From: Rubrobacter sp.
GTDB lineage: Bacteria > Actinomycetota > Rubrobacteria > Rubrobacterales > Rubrobacteraceae
NCBI GenBank assembly: GCA_019247245.1
Contig: JAFAPF010000197.1
Location: forward strand, 1-15,346
Direction: 5' to 3'
Length of the DNA stretch: 15,346 nucleotides
The position numbers and the translations under genes are program-made. The notes beneath the pieces were generated by a model that was not told the DNA's origin, ran no database searches, and worked only from the letters and a program-made list of their open reading frames with translations. Of this stretch, positions 3,800 through 12,470 are shown one piece after another; the first letter of the stretch is position 1; each line of letters starts with the position of its first letter.

Positions 3800-4555
3800 T
3801 CATTGTCCGTTGGCGGTTGCGCTCAATTCCGCGATCCTTTCGAAGGCATTAGGACCATAGAAGCCACCGTGATAACAGAGCACGTAGTCAATTTGGTAGC
3901 CGGTTAGCTTCCTGAGCGAGGCCTTAGCCCTTTCCATATCTGGGGTGGCCCACTCGCTCGGCCCAACCAACTCACCCTCTTCAACCCTCAGCTCGTCTCC
4001 TGCGATCAGAAGCCGTGCTTTTTTGACAAACAGGCTGAGGTGCCCCGGCGTGTGGCCGGGCGTATGTATAGCTTCAATGCCACCGTGAAAAGGCAACTCT
4101 TCACCGTCACGTATAGTGCGGTCAACTTTTCCCGTGGGGGGCGTAGAAAAGATTCGTTCAAGTTGTTGTTGTTGCGGTTCGGGCAGAGATTCCATCATTT
4201 GGGCCATGCGCTCCCGATTCATCTTGATCAAGGATTTGTCACCTTCGATATAGGGTTTATCTTCCTCGTGAGCTAGGACCTCGATCTTACCCTCTCGAAC
4301 ACGGGTGATTTCCGGCAACCCTCCTATATGATCGATGTCTTGGTGGGTCAGAATAATCCGGCGAAGGCTCTCGAAGGAAACGCCCGCGTTTTCTATCTCC
4401 CATCTTACGGCATCCAGTGATCCCGGAATCCCAGTATCGACCAGCGTGGTCTCATCCAAGTCCCATAACAGCGCGGGATAAATGATGGTGTTTTGACCCA
4501 TGAGGTTCATGCGCAACTCAAGGGCTTCAATGTTTTCTGCGATCCTCATAAGCAC
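3800..4555 (-). CDS. MBL-fold metallo-hydrolase
   Basis: This is a 251-residue cytosolic metallo-beta-lactamase-fold protein with the full set of metal-site motifs. LTHQDIDHIGG (His71 to His76) is the HxHxDH box, with Asp in place of the second His, a form seen in one branch of the family. HTPGHTPGHLSLF holds the third metal His, AGDEL the bridging Asp, and CYHGG the last His. TTLVDTGIPGS is the usual N-terminal strand and loop. Members hydrolyse thioesters, lactones or other esters; the substrate cannot be told here, and it is not an antibiotic-resistance beta-lactamase on this evidence. Start is GTG 4555 or ATG 4549; neither has a strong ribosome site. It is separated from the P450 gene by about 300 bases, so probably a separate unit. 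Confidence 0.85.
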   Translation of the reverse strand: MLMRIAENIEALELRMNLMGQNTIIYPALLWDLDETTLVDTGIPGSLDAVRWEIENAGVSFESLRRIILTHQDIDHIGGLPEITRVREGKIEVLAHEEDKPYIEGDKSLIKMNRERMAQMMESLPEPQQQQLERIFSTPPTGKVDRTIRDGEELPFHGGIEAIHTPGHTPGHLSLFVKKARLLIAGDELRVEEGELVGPSEWATPDMERAKASLRKLTGYQIDYVLCYHGGFYGPNAFERIAELSATANGQ

Positions 4556-4859: not shown

Positions 4860-6293
4860 TTAGAACAGAACTGGCAGGCGCGCGAACCCCCGCAGGAAGC
4901 TACCGCCCCAGTTCACCTCCTCGGCGGGAACAGCCAACCTCAGCTCCGGGAATCGTTGGAACAACGTAGTGAAAGCGACCTGCCCTTCAACGCGCGCCAG
5001 CGGCGCTCCTAGGCAGACGTGAATACCCTTGCCAAAAGCTACGTGCCGGTTGGCATCGGCCCGGGTGATATCGAAGACGTCCGGGTTTGCGAACCGCTCA
5101 GGATCCCGGTTGGCTGAGGCCAGGCTAACCGTGGCTTGCTCCCCGGTCGGGACCACCGTGCCGCCCACCTCGACGTCTTCCTTGGCGATGCGACGTCCGA
5201 TGAAGTCGACCGGCCCCCAGTAACGCAGCGTCTCCTCGACTACCCCCTTGGCTAGCAGCTCGGGGTTCGCCTTGAGCTTCGCCAGCTGGTCGGGATGGGT
5301 CAGCAGGGCGACGACACCGTTGCCAACCAGGTTCACCGTGGTCACATGTCCGGCTAGGAACAAAAGGAAGACCGTCGAGAGGATCTCTTCCTCGTCGAGC
5401 ATATCGCCGTCCTCTTCAGCGTGGACTAGGCGACTGATCATATCGTCGGTCGGGGCCTGGCGCTTACGTTCGAACAGGTCCTTAAGGTAGTCGATAAACT
5501 CTCGCAGCCCTGCCCGAGTCTCCTCATCTAACTCCTGACCCCGGCGACGGTCGGCGCTGATTAGGTTCTCCGTCCACCCCCGGATGGTCTCGCGATCCTC
5601 GCGCGGGATGCCTAGCAAATCGCTTATTACAGTGACCGGAAACGGGTAGGCGAACGTCTCGATCAGGTCCATTCGCCGGTTAGGGGCTACCTCGCCACGC
5701 TTGGCGGCGTCGAGCTCAGCTTGGTCCAAGAGATCGTCCACGATCTGCTGGATGCTCCCCCGCAACGCTTCCATACCCCGTCCCGTAAAGCCCGGCTGGA
5801 CCAGCTTGCGCAACCGCGTATGGTCGGGTGGGTCGAGCAAGATGAGGCTACGAGATAGCGGCCGGAACTCCTCTGGCATTTGGGGTTGCCTCTCTAGCTG
5901 CTCCTGAGACATCCCGGAGCGGAGATCAACCGAGAAGCGGTCGCTGAGTAAGGTCGCGATGACTTCGTCATAGTGGGTGACGAAGAAAGTTTCGCGCCTC
6001 CCGAAGAACCCTCGCTGCTCCTCCTCGCCGTCACCCGACGCCTCCTCTCCCCCCTCGCCGATGCCAGCGAAGCGGACACGGGAGACCGGCCCCTTCGCCC
6101 GTAGGTCGGCGTAGATATCGTAGGCGTCAGCCATGAAGTGCGGATCTGCTATGTCCAACTCCACCTGTTCCGTCGCACGTGTCTCCTCCTCGCGGCTCGT
6201 GTTCGCTCCAGCGCCGTCCTTGCTCGTCGATTGCGAGACAACCGCGTCTTTGTCTTTGGGATCGAAGGCGTCCACATGTGGTAACTCGGTCAA
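4860..6293 (-). CDS. Cytochrome P450
   Basis: This soluble bacterial class I-type P450 has 477 residues. It is a heme monooxygenase that would need ferredoxin and reductase partners from elsewhere. The I-helix oxygen-binding motif is AGHVTT (314-319). The ExxR pair is Glu354/Arg357 in EETLRYW. The heme loop is FGKGIHVCLGAPLAR with proximal Cys427. LDPPDHTRLRKLV (153-165) is the usual C-helix heme-propionate region. The start is TTG 6293, set 5 bases after AAGGAGG; the ATG inside that spacer hits a stop at once. Oddities are a long charged N-terminus (about 1-45) and an acidic Gly/Glu-rich insert at 76-99, where most bacterial P450s have a short turn. It follows the exporter by 28 bases and should be co-transcribed with marR and the exporter. 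Substrate unknown. Confidence 0.93.
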   Translation of the reverse strand: MTELPHVDAFDPKDKDAVVSQSTSKDGAGANTSREEETRATEQVELDIADPHFMADAYDIYADLRAKGPVSRVRFAGIGEGGEEASGDGEEEQRGFFGRRETFFVTHYDEVIATLLSDRFSVDLRSGMSQEQLERQPQMPEEFRPLSRSLILLDPPDHTRLRKLVQPGFTGRGMEALRGSIQQIVDDLLDQAELDAAKRGEVAPNRRMDLIETFAYPFPVTVISDLLGIPREDRETIRGWTENLISADRRRGQELDEETRAGLREFIDYLKDLFERKRQAPTDDMISRLVHAEEDGDMLDEEEILSTVFLLFLAGHVTTVNLVGNGVVALLTHPDQLAKLKANPELLAKGVVEETLRYWGPVDFIGRRIAKEDVEVGGTVVPTGEQATVSLASANRDPERFANPDVFDITRADANRHVAFGKGIHVCLGAPLARVEGQVAFTTLFQRFPELRLAVPAEEVNWGGSFLRGFARLPVLF

Positions 6294-6321: not shown

Positions 6322-8417
6322 TCAACTAGGGGCAGATTGGCATTCGGGTTGGCGAGTTAGACCCCTAACCAGCTCTAGCAAATTACTGCGAACCCTATTT
6401 CTATGTATCAGCTTTCCTAGAGGCTGGTGCATCTCCTCTACGGTTAGCATCCCAGATAAGACCCAACGCTGGCGATCAGGTGGTAAGTCAACGGGTCGTA
6501 CAAAGCGTTCGAGGTCTATTATGCTCTGTTCCCACTCTCTCAAGGCGCTAGGATCATTTCTCGCCTTAGACGCCCCTATAAAGGCTAATTCACGCTGAAT
6601 AGCTCCCCGCCTCATTAACGGCAGGCTATCAAGCCAATTCGCGATGTTTAGAACATGCTCAGAATGTGCTGCATAGAGCCGCAGCTCCGGATAACGCTGC
6701 AAAGGTGCTTGGAAATCTTTGGTAGCCGGGGGGAGACTCGAGGCAGCAGCGAGCTCTGTAGGCTCTTCGCTGGCGCGACCGTTAGCAATCTGTATGTCCA
6801 TAACCAGATACCTTTGGGGCAGTGGATCACCGACCCTGCCATTCATAGTGGGGGTTGAAGTACAAACTCCTTCCGACACGCTCTCGTTCGTGCTGCGCAT
6901 CTCCTGATCGGCGAAGGTCGTGTTGCGAAGCGGCAGCCCTTTGATGAAGAGCGTCGCTAGAAATGCCCCAGCTAGGATGGGGAGGCCGCCAACGAATACC
7001 GTGTGTATCGCCGCGGCAAGGCCCTCACGGATACCGATCGCAATGGCAGGTGGGAGCTGGACAAGAGTGGTTGGGTCTAACACCGCTCCTACTTCCGTTC
7101 CACCGGAGAACTGTTCGGCCTGTGAACTATTCAAAGCCTCATTAGGTAGGTACTTGGGTATCTCAGTTGTCATCCTGCTAGCCATTATGGTGCCGATGGC
7201 CGTGCCAAGTGTGGCTCCAAGCGAGCGGGAGAGCTGTGTAATTGACGTGGCGACACCAAGGTCTGGGCGTGAAATGGCGTTCTGGACGACGAGAGTGTAC
7301 GTTTGCAACACCCCCCTAGGTCAAGACCAGTGATCACCATTGCGATCGTGAGTTCGGTCTGCGTCGAGCCGTATTCAAGGCGGGTGAGCAGATAGTAGCC
7401 CACCCCCGTTATACTCGTCCCCGCAAGCAAGAATCCTTTGTAGCGCCCAGTTCGAGTGATGAGCCTCCCGACAAGGATACTGACCAGTATCATGGAGGTG
7501 GTGAGCGGTATAAGGACGGCGCCCGAGTTTGTCACGCTCACACCGATGACCCCTTGCGCGTAGATGGGGATGAAGAAGATGGAGCCGAACAGGGTCATCG
7601 CAACGGCCATGTTCGAGAGGGTGAAGACGGAGTTCTTCCAAAGCCTCAACGGTAGCACCGGCTCATCGGCGTAGTTCCCGTTGATGACGAATGCAGTCAG
7701 ACTCACTACGCCTGCAATGTACAGCGAGATAATCTGCCAGGAACCCCACGAATACTGCGTCCCTCCCCTCGAGGTCGCAAGCAGCACAGCGGAGAGAGCA
7801 AGCGCTAAAGTTACGAAGCTCACATAGTCAAGGGAGTACCTCCTAGAGATGTGGGGAAGATGGAAAAATGTGACGATAAACAGGAGTGCCGCCACACCTA
7901 TGGGTAGATTGGTAAAAAAGAGCCACCGCCAAGAGAAGTTGTCGGTGATCCAACCACCGGCTAATGGACCAGCGATCGAGGCGACGCCGAAGACGCCACC
8001 CAGATACCCCATGTACTTGCCGCGTTCGCGAGGGCTTATGATGTCGCCGATTATCGTCTGGGAGAGCGACATAATGATACCCATCCCCAAGCCCTGGATA
8101 GCTCGGGCTCCAACGAGCCACCAGAATCCTTGTGCCGCCCCAGCAAAGATGGAGCCGGCCATGAAAACGACGAGTCCAGCGATGTAGAACCCGCGCCGGC
8201 CATACATATCGGAGAGCTTGCCAACTATCGGGATGACCACCGCCGAGACTAAAAGCGTCGAGGTCGCGATCCAGCTGTAGTGCTCGATCCCACCAAGCTC
8301 AGCCCCGATCACCGGCATGGCCGGAGAGGCTACGGTCTGGCTTACGGCAGCGACGAGCATACCGAGCATCAGCCCGACGAATATTACCGTTTTGTGGTTT
8401 GAGCCTCCCTTGCCCAA
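6322..8417 (-). pseudogene. DHA2/EmrB-like 14-TM exporter, split by a one-base slip
   Basis: This is a major facilitator drug:H+ antiporter, here in two frames. The first (8417 to about 7316) gives TM1-12, with the motif A loop GKLSDMYGRR and motif C GVASIAGPLAGG. At the C6 run 7311-7316 (G6 on the coding strand) the frame breaks. Adding one G restores CTA GGG GGG GTG TTG and continues as LQTYTLVVQNAISRPDLG, the usual start of the last third of this family. The repaired protein would be about 698 residues, longer than the usual 450-550, because about 200 residues follow the last helix. The TM1 motif that normally has LDxTIV reads VSQTVAS, lacking the Asp. Start is TTG 8417, 11 bases after marR. 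It may be a pseudogene, a sequencing error, or two translated parts. Confidence 0.8.
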
Positions 8418-9044: not shown

Positions 9045-9297
9045 GTTAGGAAGCGTGTGTTAAAGGAAGTTGCCCACCCCGCTAACGAACTCTCAACGAT
9101 ACTAAATAAGTAACCCGGACTTCCCGATCATGTAACCGGGACACTTCCCGAGGGCTTAAGTCTTGAGGAGGCCGATGGCAACTCGGTAGTTCTCAACCTC
9201 GGCGGCGCAAACCATGCACTGTAAGCCCACCTCCAGCCGGGCAGTATCCGCGTTATGGAGGGCGAGCGTGTCAAGCGGGGTGACGTGCTAGCACTAG
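9045..9297 (+). pseudogene. M23-type peptidase relic, 5' part
   Basis: One plus-strand frame reads as the middle of an M23 (LytM/peptidoglycan endopeptidase-like) domain: PGLPDHVTGTLPEGLSLEEA then DGNSVVLNLGGANHAL, stop TAA at 9222-9224 in place of the Tyr codon, AHLQPGSIRV and GERVKRGDVLAL. HLQPGS holds one conserved His of the fold. Another in-frame stop lies just before PGLPD, and further upstream (VAHPANELS) the match weakens, so the left limit is approximate. The frame breaks at the CTAG at 9294-9297 where the mobile element begins, and resumes in phase at 11797. The gene was already, or has since become, nonfunctional. Confidence 0.65.
9294..9297. repeat. CTAG target-site duplication, left copy
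   Basis: The identical CTAG stands at 11793-11796. Merging the two copies restores the M23 reading frame exactly, which supports a 4-bp target duplication. Confidence 0.7.
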
Positions 9298-9315
9298 ATA
9301 TCTGTTGCGAGGATT
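9298..9315. repeat. Terminal inverted repeat, transposase-side end
   Basis: It pairs with 11775-11792. The match is ATAT, then TTGCG and GG blocks with single mismatches. The transposase stop codon lies immediately inside it. Confidence 0.6.
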
Positions 9316-9556
9316 TCACGCCCAAAGCTCCTTGATCCTTCCTTGAGGCCTACCCAAAAGTCCGGTTGACCAGAAAAGCGTAGGTGTAGGCTGCTATCTT
9401 CGCCACGATTCGTGTCGCCAAGCCAGTGAGCGTTGTGGCCAGAGTCTTCCCAACCCCGAACATGCGCTTGAGGCTCGCCAGGGTGATCTCTACGTGCTGC
9501 CGCACACCGGGTCGCCTCACCGAGCGCTCGGTGACCAGCAGGATGTCGCACTCGAT

Positions 9557-9582
9557 CAGCGCCTCCTTTCAGGGCCTCCTTT
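9557..9582. repeat. 13-bp tandem duplication inside the transposase
   Basis: CAGCGCCTCCTTT (9557-9569) is followed by CAGGGCCTCCTTT (9570-9582), one mismatch. Thirteen extra bases shift the frame; with only one unit the reading passes from KEAL directly to IECD. Confidence 0.6.
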
Positions 9583-10240
9583 AAGTCCCCGCTCCGGTAG
9601 CCCAAGTCCCCGAACAGTTTCGGGCGAGCCCGTCTCCCAACCTCGCCACGGCCAAAAGCTCCTCGGTCAGGTAAACCTCCGCAACGTTGGCGGGCGTCAA
9701 CTCGTAGGAGAGGGGGACACGGTTGGCAGCGCACAACAGGTGCAACTTCACTCCGTAGACGCTGAAGGAACCCCATCTGACCCACGCCGCCCCGTAGTAA
9801 CCCGCCGAATGACTGACCTGCCTAGGATGCATAACCGTAAGCAGAGTCGAGTCTACAAGCAGGGTCTCCGGATCGCCTGCCAGCTCGGCCACGATCGCGC
9901 GCCTCAAGGGTTCCAAGAAGAACCTTAGCTTGCGCAAGCGGCGATGGAAGGAGGAAGAGGCAAGATCGACCACGCCGGGGAAGAGGTGCGAGAAGAACCT
10001 CTCAGCGTCGCGTAGGAAGGAGCGCTCTGACTCGATGCCCCGCAGTTGCTGGAACAGAGCTAGGGTTATAACCTCTGAATCTGAGAGCTGCTTGAGGGAC
10101 TCGTAGCGCCGCCCTCTCGGGTCGAGTTTGGTGTAGGCGTCGTCGATGAGGCAGAACAAGACAGTTATGGCCTCTTTCGGGTGAATCTGTGGGTATGGTG
10201 TTTTTGGGTCATCTAATGCTCCAGATCTCTCCCTGGCCAC

Positions 10241-10258
10241 GTTACACATATGTGTAAC
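10241..10258. repeat. 18-bp perfect palindrome at the transposase 5' end
   Basis: GTTACACATATGTGTAAC is fully self-complementary with no loop. A possible transposase start (ATG at 10249, minus) lies at its centre, so a bound protein could block both initiation and transcription. Confidence 0.5.
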
Positions 10259-10391
10259 TCCCGTGTCAGAATGTTGGTGCATGGAAAGGGCTAGATGCGA
10301 CCTCTGTTTGTGGAGAGATCGGTGGGAGAACTAGGGCATGATCGCGAACCCGAACCGACGGGACAGCCACGATAGAGACAGGGGATAGATA

Positions 10392-11597
10392 GTGCACGAT
10401 TCCCATCACGGAGGTCTGCTGCGAAGCCGGGATGGAGGGGAGCAGCAGGTTACGCCCCTGGAGCTGTTCTTCGATCTGGTCTACGTCTTCGCCATAACGC
10501 AGCTCTCCCACCTGCTGCTGAACCACCTGACCGTCGGAGGGGCGCTGGAGACGCTCTTCCTGTTGCTGGCGGTGTGGTGGGCGTGGGTCTACACGACCTG
10601 GGTTACCAACTGGTTCGACCCGGACCGGTTGCCGGTGCGCCTGATGCTGGTCGCGGTGATGCTCGCCAGCCTGGTAATGTCAGTCACCATCCCGGATACC
10701 TTCGGGGAACGCGGGCTGATGTTCGCCGTAGCCTACGTAGCTATCCAGGTGGGGCGCACCGTGTTTGTGGTTATCGCCCTGAACAAGTCCCTGGGTAGAT
10801 CTGCTCCGCTGAGCAGGAACTTCCAGCGTATATTTTTCTGGCTCTTGGCGTCCGGGGTGTTGTGGGTCATCGGCGGCTTGCTGGAGGTAGAGGCGCGCTA
10901 CGTGCTGTGGGCCCTCGCCCTGGCCGTGGAGTATGCGGGGCCGGTCGTCGGTTTTTACACCCCGGGTCTCGGCCGCTCCACCACCGAAACGTGGAGGACA
11001 GTCGAGGGCGGGCACGCCGCCGAGCGGTGCCAGTTGTTCGTGATCATCGCCCTGGGCGAGTCGATCCTGGTAACCGGCACGACCCTCGGCGAGATCGAGA
11101 CGTCCGTGGCCACGGTAGCCGCGTTCGTGGTGGCCTTCCTCGGCAGCGTGGCGCTGTGGTGGATCTACTTCGCCCGCGCCGCGGAGGCCGCTCGTGAGGT
11201 CTTCGCCTCCTCGGAGGACCCGGGTAGGATAGCTCGCTCCGCATACACCTATTTCCACCTGCCGATGATCGCGGGGATCATCGCGGTCGCGGCAGCAGAC
11301 GAGTTCATCGTCGGACATCCCAGCGACCGAGGGACGACCACCTCCGTCGCACTGACCTTCGGAGGAACGGCGCTGTTTTTGGCCGGGCACGCGTTCTTCA
11401 AGTGGGCCGTGTTCGGGATGCTGCCTTGGTCGCGCGCGGTCGCGATCGCTGCGCTGGCTGGGCTGATGCTCGTGGGCTTCGCGCTACCGACGCTCGTGCT
11501 CAGCAGCGCAGCAGTCCTGATCGTAGTAGCCCTTGCGGCGTGGGACGCCCTAGCTTATCAAGGAAACGTGAGTTCACTACGACGGTCCACCAGATAA
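10392..11597 (+). CDS. ltrA: LtrA family membrane protein (low temperature requirement A)
   Basis: This intact polytopic membrane protein of 401 residues has roughly 10-12 hydrophobic helices. The LtrA signature is near the N-terminus: VTPLELFFDLVYVFAITQLS, followed by WWAWVYTTWVTNWFDPDR. Later family blocks are RCQLFVIIALGESILVTGTT (mid-protein) and YTYFHLPMIAGIIAVAAADE. The name comes from a Listeria cold-growth mutant; the biochemical role is unknown. Start is GTG 10392 with AGGGGA 6 bases upstream. It is inside the mobile element, divergent from the transposase with about 110 bases between them, and shows no frame damage, unlike the transposase beside it, so it may be under selection. Confidence 0.88.
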   Translation: MHDSHHGGLLRSRDGGEQQVTPLELFFDLVYVFAITQLSHLLLNHLTVGGALETLFLLLAVWWAWVYTTWVTNWFDPDRLPVRLMLVAVMLASLVMSVTIPDTFGERGLMFAVAYVAIQVGRTVFVVIALNKSLGRSAPLSRNFQRIFFWLLASGVLWVIGGLLEVEARYVLWALALAVEYAGPVVGFYTPGLGRSTTETWRTVEGGHAAERCQLFVIIALGESILVTGTTLGEIETSVATVAAFVVAFLGSVALWWIYFARAAEAAREVFASSEDPGRIARSAYTYFHLPMIAGIIAVAAADEFIVGHPSDRGTTTSVALTFGGTALFLAGHAFFKWAVFGMLPWSRAVAIAALAGLMLVGFALPTLVLSSAAVLIVVALAAWDALAYQGNVSSLRRSTR

Positions 11598-11774
11598 GTA
11601 CAGGAGGTTCACTACCATCGAGCACAGGCGGGATTCCAAAGGCTAAGTGCACGTTTCCTGCCATTACTGCCATTAGAGTAACAGATATGTGAACGTCTCT
11701 ACGGCGAGGTCTGTGATGCCTCCTTGGTCCGGGCGTCAGATGACCTCCAGACGATCTCCTTTTTATCTCAAAGC

Positions 11775-11792
11775 AAACCACGCAATACATAT
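11775..11792. repeat. Terminal inverted repeat, ltrA-side end
   Basis: Its reverse complement begins ATATGTATTGCGTGG, matching the left end in 14 of the first 18 positions. It is followed directly by CTAG. Confidence 0.6.
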
Positions 11793-11796
11793 CTAG
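11793..11796. repeat. CTAG target-site duplication, right copy
   Basis: It matches 9294-9297. The M23 frame resumes here as GTA GGC ACC. Confidence 0.7.
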
Positions 11797-11852
11797 TAGG
11801 CACCTCTGGCAACAGCGCAGAGTCGCACCTACACTTCCACCGGATGTCCGCC
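11797..11852 (+). pseudogene. M23-type peptidase relic, 3' part
   Basis: In phase with the 5' relic, this reads VGTSGNSAESHLHFHRM. GNSGxS followed by PHLHFH is the distinctive C-terminal motif of M23 peptidases and contains the HxH pair that binds zinc or activates water; here Pro is Ser. The right limit is uncertain because a tyrosine-recombinase reading in another frame starts near 11846. Confidence 0.6.
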
Positions 11853-12087
11853 TTAGAAACCGCTCCTTCGCCCGACTCCTCAAACGCGCTAGCCTCCCCC
11901 CCACTACCCGCTTCCGTGATCTGCGGCACACCTGCGCGATGCTGCTCCTCTCCCGCAACGTAAACAAGATATAGTCTCCGAGATGCTCGCCCACTTGTCT
12001 ATAGTTACCACGCTAGACACCTACAGTCATGTGCTGCTTACCATGCAGGAGAGCGCAGTCCATGCCCTCGAAGATACTCTGAAATAA
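11846..12087 (+). pseudogene. Tyrosine recombinase (phage-type integrase) C-terminal relic
   Basis: Two frames give the catalytic end of a tyrosine recombinase. The first reads NRSFARLLKRASLPPTTRF then RDLRHTCAMLLLSRNVNK and meets TAG at 11972. After a slip there the second reads VSEMLAHLSIVTTLDTYSHV with the expected Tyr nucleophile, then ends at TAA 12085-12087. The usual HDLRHT box reads RDLRHT, so the catalytic His of HxxR is lost, and LGH reads LAH. The N-terminal core-binding domain is absent. This is a dead integrase that probably marks an old mobile island boundary. Confidence 0.75.
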
Positions 12088-12470
12088 TGATCTCAGCACC
12101 GGAAGCAATCCGAAGGACCAGCCAATAATAAATTCAGATACAGAGCTTGCGCCTAAAGGAGGGGAGCAGGCTACGGTTCGCTTCGAAACTGACCATTTTG
12201 AGGTAGTTAGGGCAACGCTACGGATAAGCGAGATTAGAACAGCTTGTGATGTCTTCTACCCCATTACATTTGCCAAGTTTTATCACTTTGTTTTTGACAC
12301 AGGTTTTAGCACACAAGAGTGAGCAGAAGAACAGCAGGTACTTTGTAGCAGGCCCAAGTGTGCCAAAACCGACCGTTTTGGCACACCTACATATAGAGCT
12401 TCCTAAAGGTGAGGATAAGTCATACTGATCTCCTCATACCTTGAACATGGATAGGCTAGGGAAGAAGTTG
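12088..12470. other. Relatively AT-rich stretch with no recognised gene
   Basis: A start-less open frame runs from about 12079 to 12324, reading ATLRISEIRTACDVFYP in part; I do not recognise it. A strong stem-loop lies at 12358-12386. Nothing else is supportable. Confidence 0.35.
12358..12386. repeat. Perfect 12-bp inverted repeat with 5-base loop
   Basis: GTGTGCCAAAAC (12358-12369) and GTTTTGGCACAC (12375-12386) pair fully around CGACC. Neither side has a T-run, so a simple terminator is unlikely; an operator or recombination site near the dead integrase is possible. Confidence 0.6.

Follow-up and report, generated by a model that had tools for sequence, protein, structure and literature searches.

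How does a gene for a membrane protein come to lie between the ends of an insertion sequence (IS)? The question is raised by a locus in contig C518, part of a Rubrobacteraceae assembly that comprises 3.1 Mb in 548 contigs and is 84% complete. This contig is the 15.3-kb stretch of DNA that was analysed here and that I call the window. An original prediction, made from the letters of the window, described a 2495-bp element holding a transposase and a whole ltrA gene, and the ends, an empty site and a full-length ltrA all agree with it. The element is very probably one mobile unit, a transporter IS with ltrA as its cargo. Its ends, target duplication, empty site, simple relatives, cargo junctions and a second, truncated copy could each be observed directly.

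A 2495-bp unit in an M23 gene fragment

The inverted ends and the CTAG duplication of the prediction were both borne out. Positions 9293-9315 and 11775-11797 are identical, as inverted sequences, at 19 of 23 positions, and no other 23-mer pairing of the two 50-nt end zones scores higher; none of 1000 single-base shuffles reached 19, the maximum being 17. At up to two mismatches the end pattern CTAGATNNSTRTTGCGNGG has just two sites in the window, 9294-9312 (+) and 11778-11796 (-), and two matches were found in none of 200 shuffled windows (shuffle mean 0.03). This pattern was built from relatives and then widened to admit the window's own ends, each of which has two mismatches to the stricter motif of the relatives. 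When the flanks are joined with a single CTAG they encode an in-frame M23 peptide, and the PF01551 model spans the joint (42.2 bits). The prediction had also proposed a comparison with empty sites in relatives, and one such gene, uninterrupted in genome G023, aligns with the joined flanks over 183 bp without a gap at 79% identity. Together, the ends, the CTAG copies, the joined M23 frame and the empty site confirm a 4-bp CTAG duplication and a unit of 2495 bp (Table 1).

The further claim, that excision would exactly heal the M23 gene in frame, stands for the joint but not for the gene. The M23 gene at the insertion site was a fragment beforehand, with an in-frame stop in its left part, and thus excision would restore the joint and leave a fragment. 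Past the M23 piece, at 11840-12090, pieces resembling the C-terminus of a tyrosine recombinase can be seen by eye in different frames, which places the insertion site within an old decayed region.

Table 1. Coordinates of the element, its parts and its insertion site in the window
Feature	Position	Strand	Remark
Whole element with both CTAG copies	9294..11796	.	2503 bp; end pattern here alone at up to 2 mismatches; empty site
Element between the two CTAG copies	9298-11792		2495 bp
IS right end (transposase 3' side)	9294..9312	+	CTAGATATCTGTTGCGAGG
IS left end (transposase 5' side)	11778..11796	-	CTAGATATGTATTGCGTGG
CTAG target duplication, copy 1	9294..9297	.	
CTAG target duplication, copy 2	11793..11796	.	
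Interrupted M23 gene, left piece	9162..9297	+	one in-frame stop
Interrupted M23 gene, right piece	11797..11876	+	
Decayed IS982-like DDE transposase	9319..10212	-	start set by comparison with R. tropicus and simple copies
Cargo segment	10223..11707	.	~1.5 kb; missing in simple copies
ltrA	10392..11597	+	401 aa, open; predicted TMEM175-like fold
ltrA core, block probably recombined relative to the R. tropicus element	10486..11365	+	80-nt bins 69-85% alike
Kept IS left end and transposase leader, to about the ribosome site and start codon	11708..11796	-	aligned 1-89

The insertion-sequence family and its cargo

What was the element before it contained ltrA? The nearest model for its transposase is NCBIfam IS982 (NF033520), with 63 bits for the window piece and 102 bits for an intact copy from an uncultured Rubrobacteraceae assembly (L038), both short of the model's cut-off of 130 bits. 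In the window the transposase frame is broken at three places: there is a gap of 4 nt at about 10175, stops interrupt it around 9580 and the frame changes near 9355. Across 39 genomes of the family, own included, transposase matches at E <=1e-20 occur in 16 and the end pattern in 20, with the reversed control in none, and many of the end-pattern matches sit at contig ends, where assemblies break. A search at three mismatches was too noisy to use, since control counts were of the same order in many genomes. The final catalogue comprises 38 distinct loci chosen among those fetched (some transposase matches have no locus), and 26 of these are two-ended. Simple, cargo-free copies of 974-1055 bp make up 22 of the 26, with L004 measured to its exact end (985 bp) and not to a further end with three mismatches, and they are not all independent because five come from one complete genome (G014), whose near-identical 993-bp elements have ends beginning CTAGATGAGTGTTGC. 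The remaining four are a 635-bp deletion form and three larger copies, namely those of the window (2503 bp), L038 (1470 bp) and L090 (1639 bp).

The window element is a cargo-bearing derivative of this ~1-kb IS982-like insertion sequence of Rubrobacteraceae. A rival boundary had been named beforehand, with the same transposase in a roughly 1-kb element whose right end would lie between 10283 and 10391; simple copies do exist, yet there is no family end (up to two mismatches) in that interval, and thus the simple form is the likely ancestor of the ltrA element, not a rival boundary. Simple copies run from the left end through a leader and a ribosome site to the transposase start, ~69-80 nt from the left end. 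The ltrA element retains this leader on its outer side, where the alignment score past the end repeat was matched by none of 200 shuffles, and homology to simple copies picks up again at 10222, the ribosome site of the transposase, in five of the nine compared and slightly further in for the other four. Between these junctions ltrA is divergent from the transposase. A CTAG at 10290-10293, ~80 bp before the transposase start and at a distance typical for the left end of simple copies, was considered as an inner left end and rejected, as the bases after it are unlike the end repeat.

Two relatives with other cargo keep an inner left end. The L038 copy, with an intact transposase frame of 296 residues, carries a VOC/glyoxalase gene (PF00903) divergent from the transposase, with its outer left end at 4459 and its inner left end at 4940 (four mismatches). 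The L090 copy carries a methyltransferase-like gene (PF13649) in an apparently broken frame, its inner left end at 4519 (two mismatches) and its outer left end at 5426, with a leader that runs to the start codon; its transposase is without the C-terminal part. In all three clear cases, ltrA included, the cargo is found 5' of the transposase gene, a shared arrangement that hints at one recurring mode of gene pick-up. A TupA-like gene between ends at 952 and 2194 in L084 may be a fourth case, a weak one in that one end has three mismatches, the gene is co-oriented with a transposase remnant and 1 of 200 shuffles matched the leader. DNA of the VOC cargo has matches in 25 of the 39 genomes and that of the methyltransferase cargo in seven, itself included in each count, with the best-scoring other match at 71% and 69%, respectively, over most of the query. 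A PADLOC search gave no match for LtrA or the VOC product. Its matches for the methyltransferase piece, to mads_2 (5e-11) and to a type II methyltransferase (1e-4), are read here as general methyltransferase likeness. Separately, L038 contains at ~5940-5993 an interspersed repeat of ~45 bp that recurs in many places in G035, G036, G037, G033 and G000, with dozens of matches, and is common in the genus.

The ltrA gene and its second copy

The original prediction rightly contrasted an intact ltrA with a decayed transposase. Residues 20-383 of LtrA match positions 2-356 of 356 of PF06772 (E 1.1e-108), and the gene is a single open frame both in the window and in a second copy in Rubrobacter tropicus (G025), whereas the transposase is broken in both. 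The R. tropicus DNA is 84% identical to 10006-11797, with the transposase start, ltrA and the leader, and the homology stops one base past the right-hand CTAG of the window (11793-11796). On the side away from ltrA this copy is truncated, its transposase cut off after ~66 residues. Over 18 kb around the R. tropicus copy nothing but element DNA aligns with the window, and the insertion sites are unrelated. The ltrA element is thus present in two genera, at unrelated sites and with a common right-hand end, the second copy being truncated at the other. The proposed search for ltrA between the two terminal repeats in other genomes is answered in part by this copy, which has the transposase start and one repeat but lacks the opposite end.

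Does ltrA occupy this position elsewhere without the repeats, as an alternative in the prediction would have it? Among the 39 family genomes the sole other close ltrA is that of R. tropicus (79% identical), which adjoins the transposase and whose homology stops within one base of the repeat. Other family matches passing E 1e-50 reach at most 46%, and 396 genomes of the phylum gave one further match passing E 1e-110, at 63% and in another family. Stretches fetched around a further 12 ltrA loci (11 in the family, one in another family) showed no transposase of the family, and the end repeat was not found at the four of these 12 where it was sought. Among plasmid records, 83 have an LtrA match and nine a transposase match, all below 60% identity. 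Viral contigs gave no LtrA match, and two end-pattern matches in them, with neither transposase nor ltrA, were taken as chance. Metagenomic LtrA proteins passing E 1e-60 number 7384, with identities of 73-100% among the 120 matches listed.

The two copies also reveal how the gene has changed. One indel (3 nt, in-frame) separates them in the 1206 nt of ltrA and eight in the other 585 nt, a distribution with P ~8e-4 if indels were evenly spread (hand calculation). LtrA retains 42 of 43 columns invariant across 37 relatives, and whole-gene dN/dS between the copies is about 0.12/0.44-0.49, a ratio of about 0.25. The gene is, however, a mosaic. Its ends, adjoining the core, are 93-95% alike, and of third positions 6 of 108 differ in the ends and 100 of the core's 292 (P 3e-10 by Fisher's test, an optimistic value, as the core limits were set after the identity profile had been viewed). 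The core has dN 0.146 and dS 0.649, and the ends dN 0.053 and dS 0.082, so that the ends alone show little constraint. From this profile, the core was probably swapped with another ltrA in one lineage, in which case part of the constraint may reflect life elsewhere or predate the element. Across 70 LtrA proteins (P0001-P0070, mostly metagenomic where the source is named), similarity of the N-terminal, core and C-terminal blocks varies independently, as if blocks were exchanged among proteins.

The predicted fold of LtrA is that of TMEM175 over nearly its full length, with a structural identity of 13-15%; a single-sequence query of the PDB gave no sequence match at E <=1. On this model, the product of ltrA is probably a membrane protein resembling TMEM175 and may act as a cation channel. 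Elsewhere in the window, at 6322-8417, a gene for an MFS transporter with an unusual C-terminal extension appears by eye to be split over two frames (minus-strand open reading frames 7185-8417 and 6322-7311).

Possible routes of capture and known systems

How might an insertion sequence of this kind have acquired ltrA? The ancestor would have been an IS982-like element of ~1 kb with CTAG as its target, duplicated on insertion. A solo outer left end, the remnant of a truncated copy, may have come to stand next to ltrA and to a complete copy. By pairing that end with the right end on the far side, the transposase would then have moved everything between as one unit. The result would be a ~1.5-kb ltrA segment between the left end with its leader and the transposase gene; inner left ends would decay later, and the ltrA form shows none. 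The transposase would have decayed afterwards while ltrA remained open, and in one lineage recombination with a different ltrA probably replaced the core. As a guess from the fold, the putative TMEM175-like protein, perhaps a cation channel, may help the host. From a comparison of the copies, I favour this capture, through the pairing of a solo outer left end with a complete copy, as the likeliest route, with some hesitation. A different route, to which I give a minor share of belief and which would leave the element itself unaffected, is that the cargo entered at the transposase's ribosome site, either on a small element of its own or by illegitimate recombination. On the outer side the leader is kept as far as GGAGGCATC, and on the inner side the sequence begins again with GGAGCAT, so that the two junctions share a short similar word; the ltrA element also has no visible inner left end, as entry at the ribosome site would have it. 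An inner left end nevertheless persists in the VOC and methyltransferase copies, and the outer piece of the latter also reaches the start codon, in the same layout as in the ltrA element.

If a simple ~1-kb IS had instead landed beside a resident ltrA, with an unrelated solo end as the right-hand repeat, the 2.5-kb unit would never have moved whole. Simple copies without ltrA are indeed the rule, and lone ends do occur in the family genomes, though many at contig ends. Yet no recognisable left end of the transposase's own adjoins its start, the same ltrA recurs in a second genus, at an unrelated site, with the same junctions and right-hand end, and the gap-free match of the joined flanks to M23 largely refutes this explanation, which I regard as highly improbable. 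Returning to ltrA as cargo of one mobile unit, several observations weigh against that reading or its parts. One copy of the ltrA element lies in its own incomplete assembly and just one other, cut short, in the family; among the 39 genomes neither a full active ltrA element nor the predicted copies with an intact transposase plus ltrA were found. For the ltrA element, a scan of the window at up to two mismatches recognised no inner left end. Past its end repeat, the outer piece of L038 resembles simple leaders weakly (2 of 200 shuffles as good). Flank searches for L038 and L090 gave short scattered repeats or partial flank matches and no empty site, and the 39 genomes hold no second copy of the VOC or methyltransferase cargo, the best other DNA being ~70% identical; these two genes could therefore be residents between a solo end and a copy. 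The Foldseek E-value for TMEM175 is 2.3e-3, with nothing under 0.001. Finally, since ltrA is a mosaic, its dN/dS is not wholly creditable to life on the element, and the earlier suggestion that the cargo is kept by selection holds in part: the open frame in both copies, the few indels and the low ratio agree with it, but the core appears recombined and the constraint may predate the element. Against selection alone, and not against the element, stands the reading that ltrA is a neutral passenger still awaiting decay, which is rather unlikely; the ends, which share the history of the backbone, have too few changes to show constraint, whereas the indel counts, the low dN of the core relative to its dS and a transposase broken in both copies argue the other way.

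Insertion sequences are usually thought to carry just what movement needs. Here, one IS family has seemingly gained a variety of cargo genes, repeatedly and on one and the same side of the transposase, and because some copies show both inner and outer ends, the step from simple IS to gene carrier is open to direct comparison and test. Through its cargo the element also connects LtrA, a membrane family that has received little study, with horizontal movement and with the channel fold of TMEM175. One could go further and propose that the family is a recurrent gene-capture device, joining a solo outer left end to the right end of a complete copy (ltrA, VOC/glyoxalase, methyltransferase, perhaps TupA-like), and that its ltrA form is a mobile gene for a TMEM175-like channel, with a recombining core, which has spread across genera, but this combined proposal is tentative and I rather doubt it. 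In literature searches, no ltrA passenger appeared in titles or abstract openings among the matches listed, and no paper was found joining IS982, target site duplication and CTAG, or TMEM175 and LtrA; the word ltrA occurs seven times in PMC8496243 (ISCompare). Absent from those listed matches are an ltrA cargo, the occurrence of such an element in two genera, and a cargo position that recurs within one family.

With which known systems does the element belong? Like the IS982 family, its closest transposase model, it has a single DDE gene and a simple form of ~1 kb, but the score lies below the cut-off, and the CTAG target and CTAGATG ends may set it apart. Like a composite transposon, it encloses DNA between ends of one IS family; however, it has one transposase region and an outer arm of only 89 nt in place of two IS arms. 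Mobilisation of the ISEcp1 type uses alternative ends, and here too the transposase would use a distant end and take a neighbouring gene; the distant end is in this case a family end with its leader, on the transposase 5' side. A mobiliser role is described for ISEcp1 (PMC9330008). As the prediction noted, passenger genes in simple insertion sequences are known and are described as transporter IS (tIS) (PMC3129680, PMC9330008), in which one transposase and two terminal repeats accompany an inside gene unrelated to transposition. The ltrA element is of this kind, with terminal repeats and a target duplication enclosing an unrelated passenger in a recognisable IS, and it differs in its ltrA cargo and in a family that also has VOC and methyltransferase genes on the transposase 5' side.
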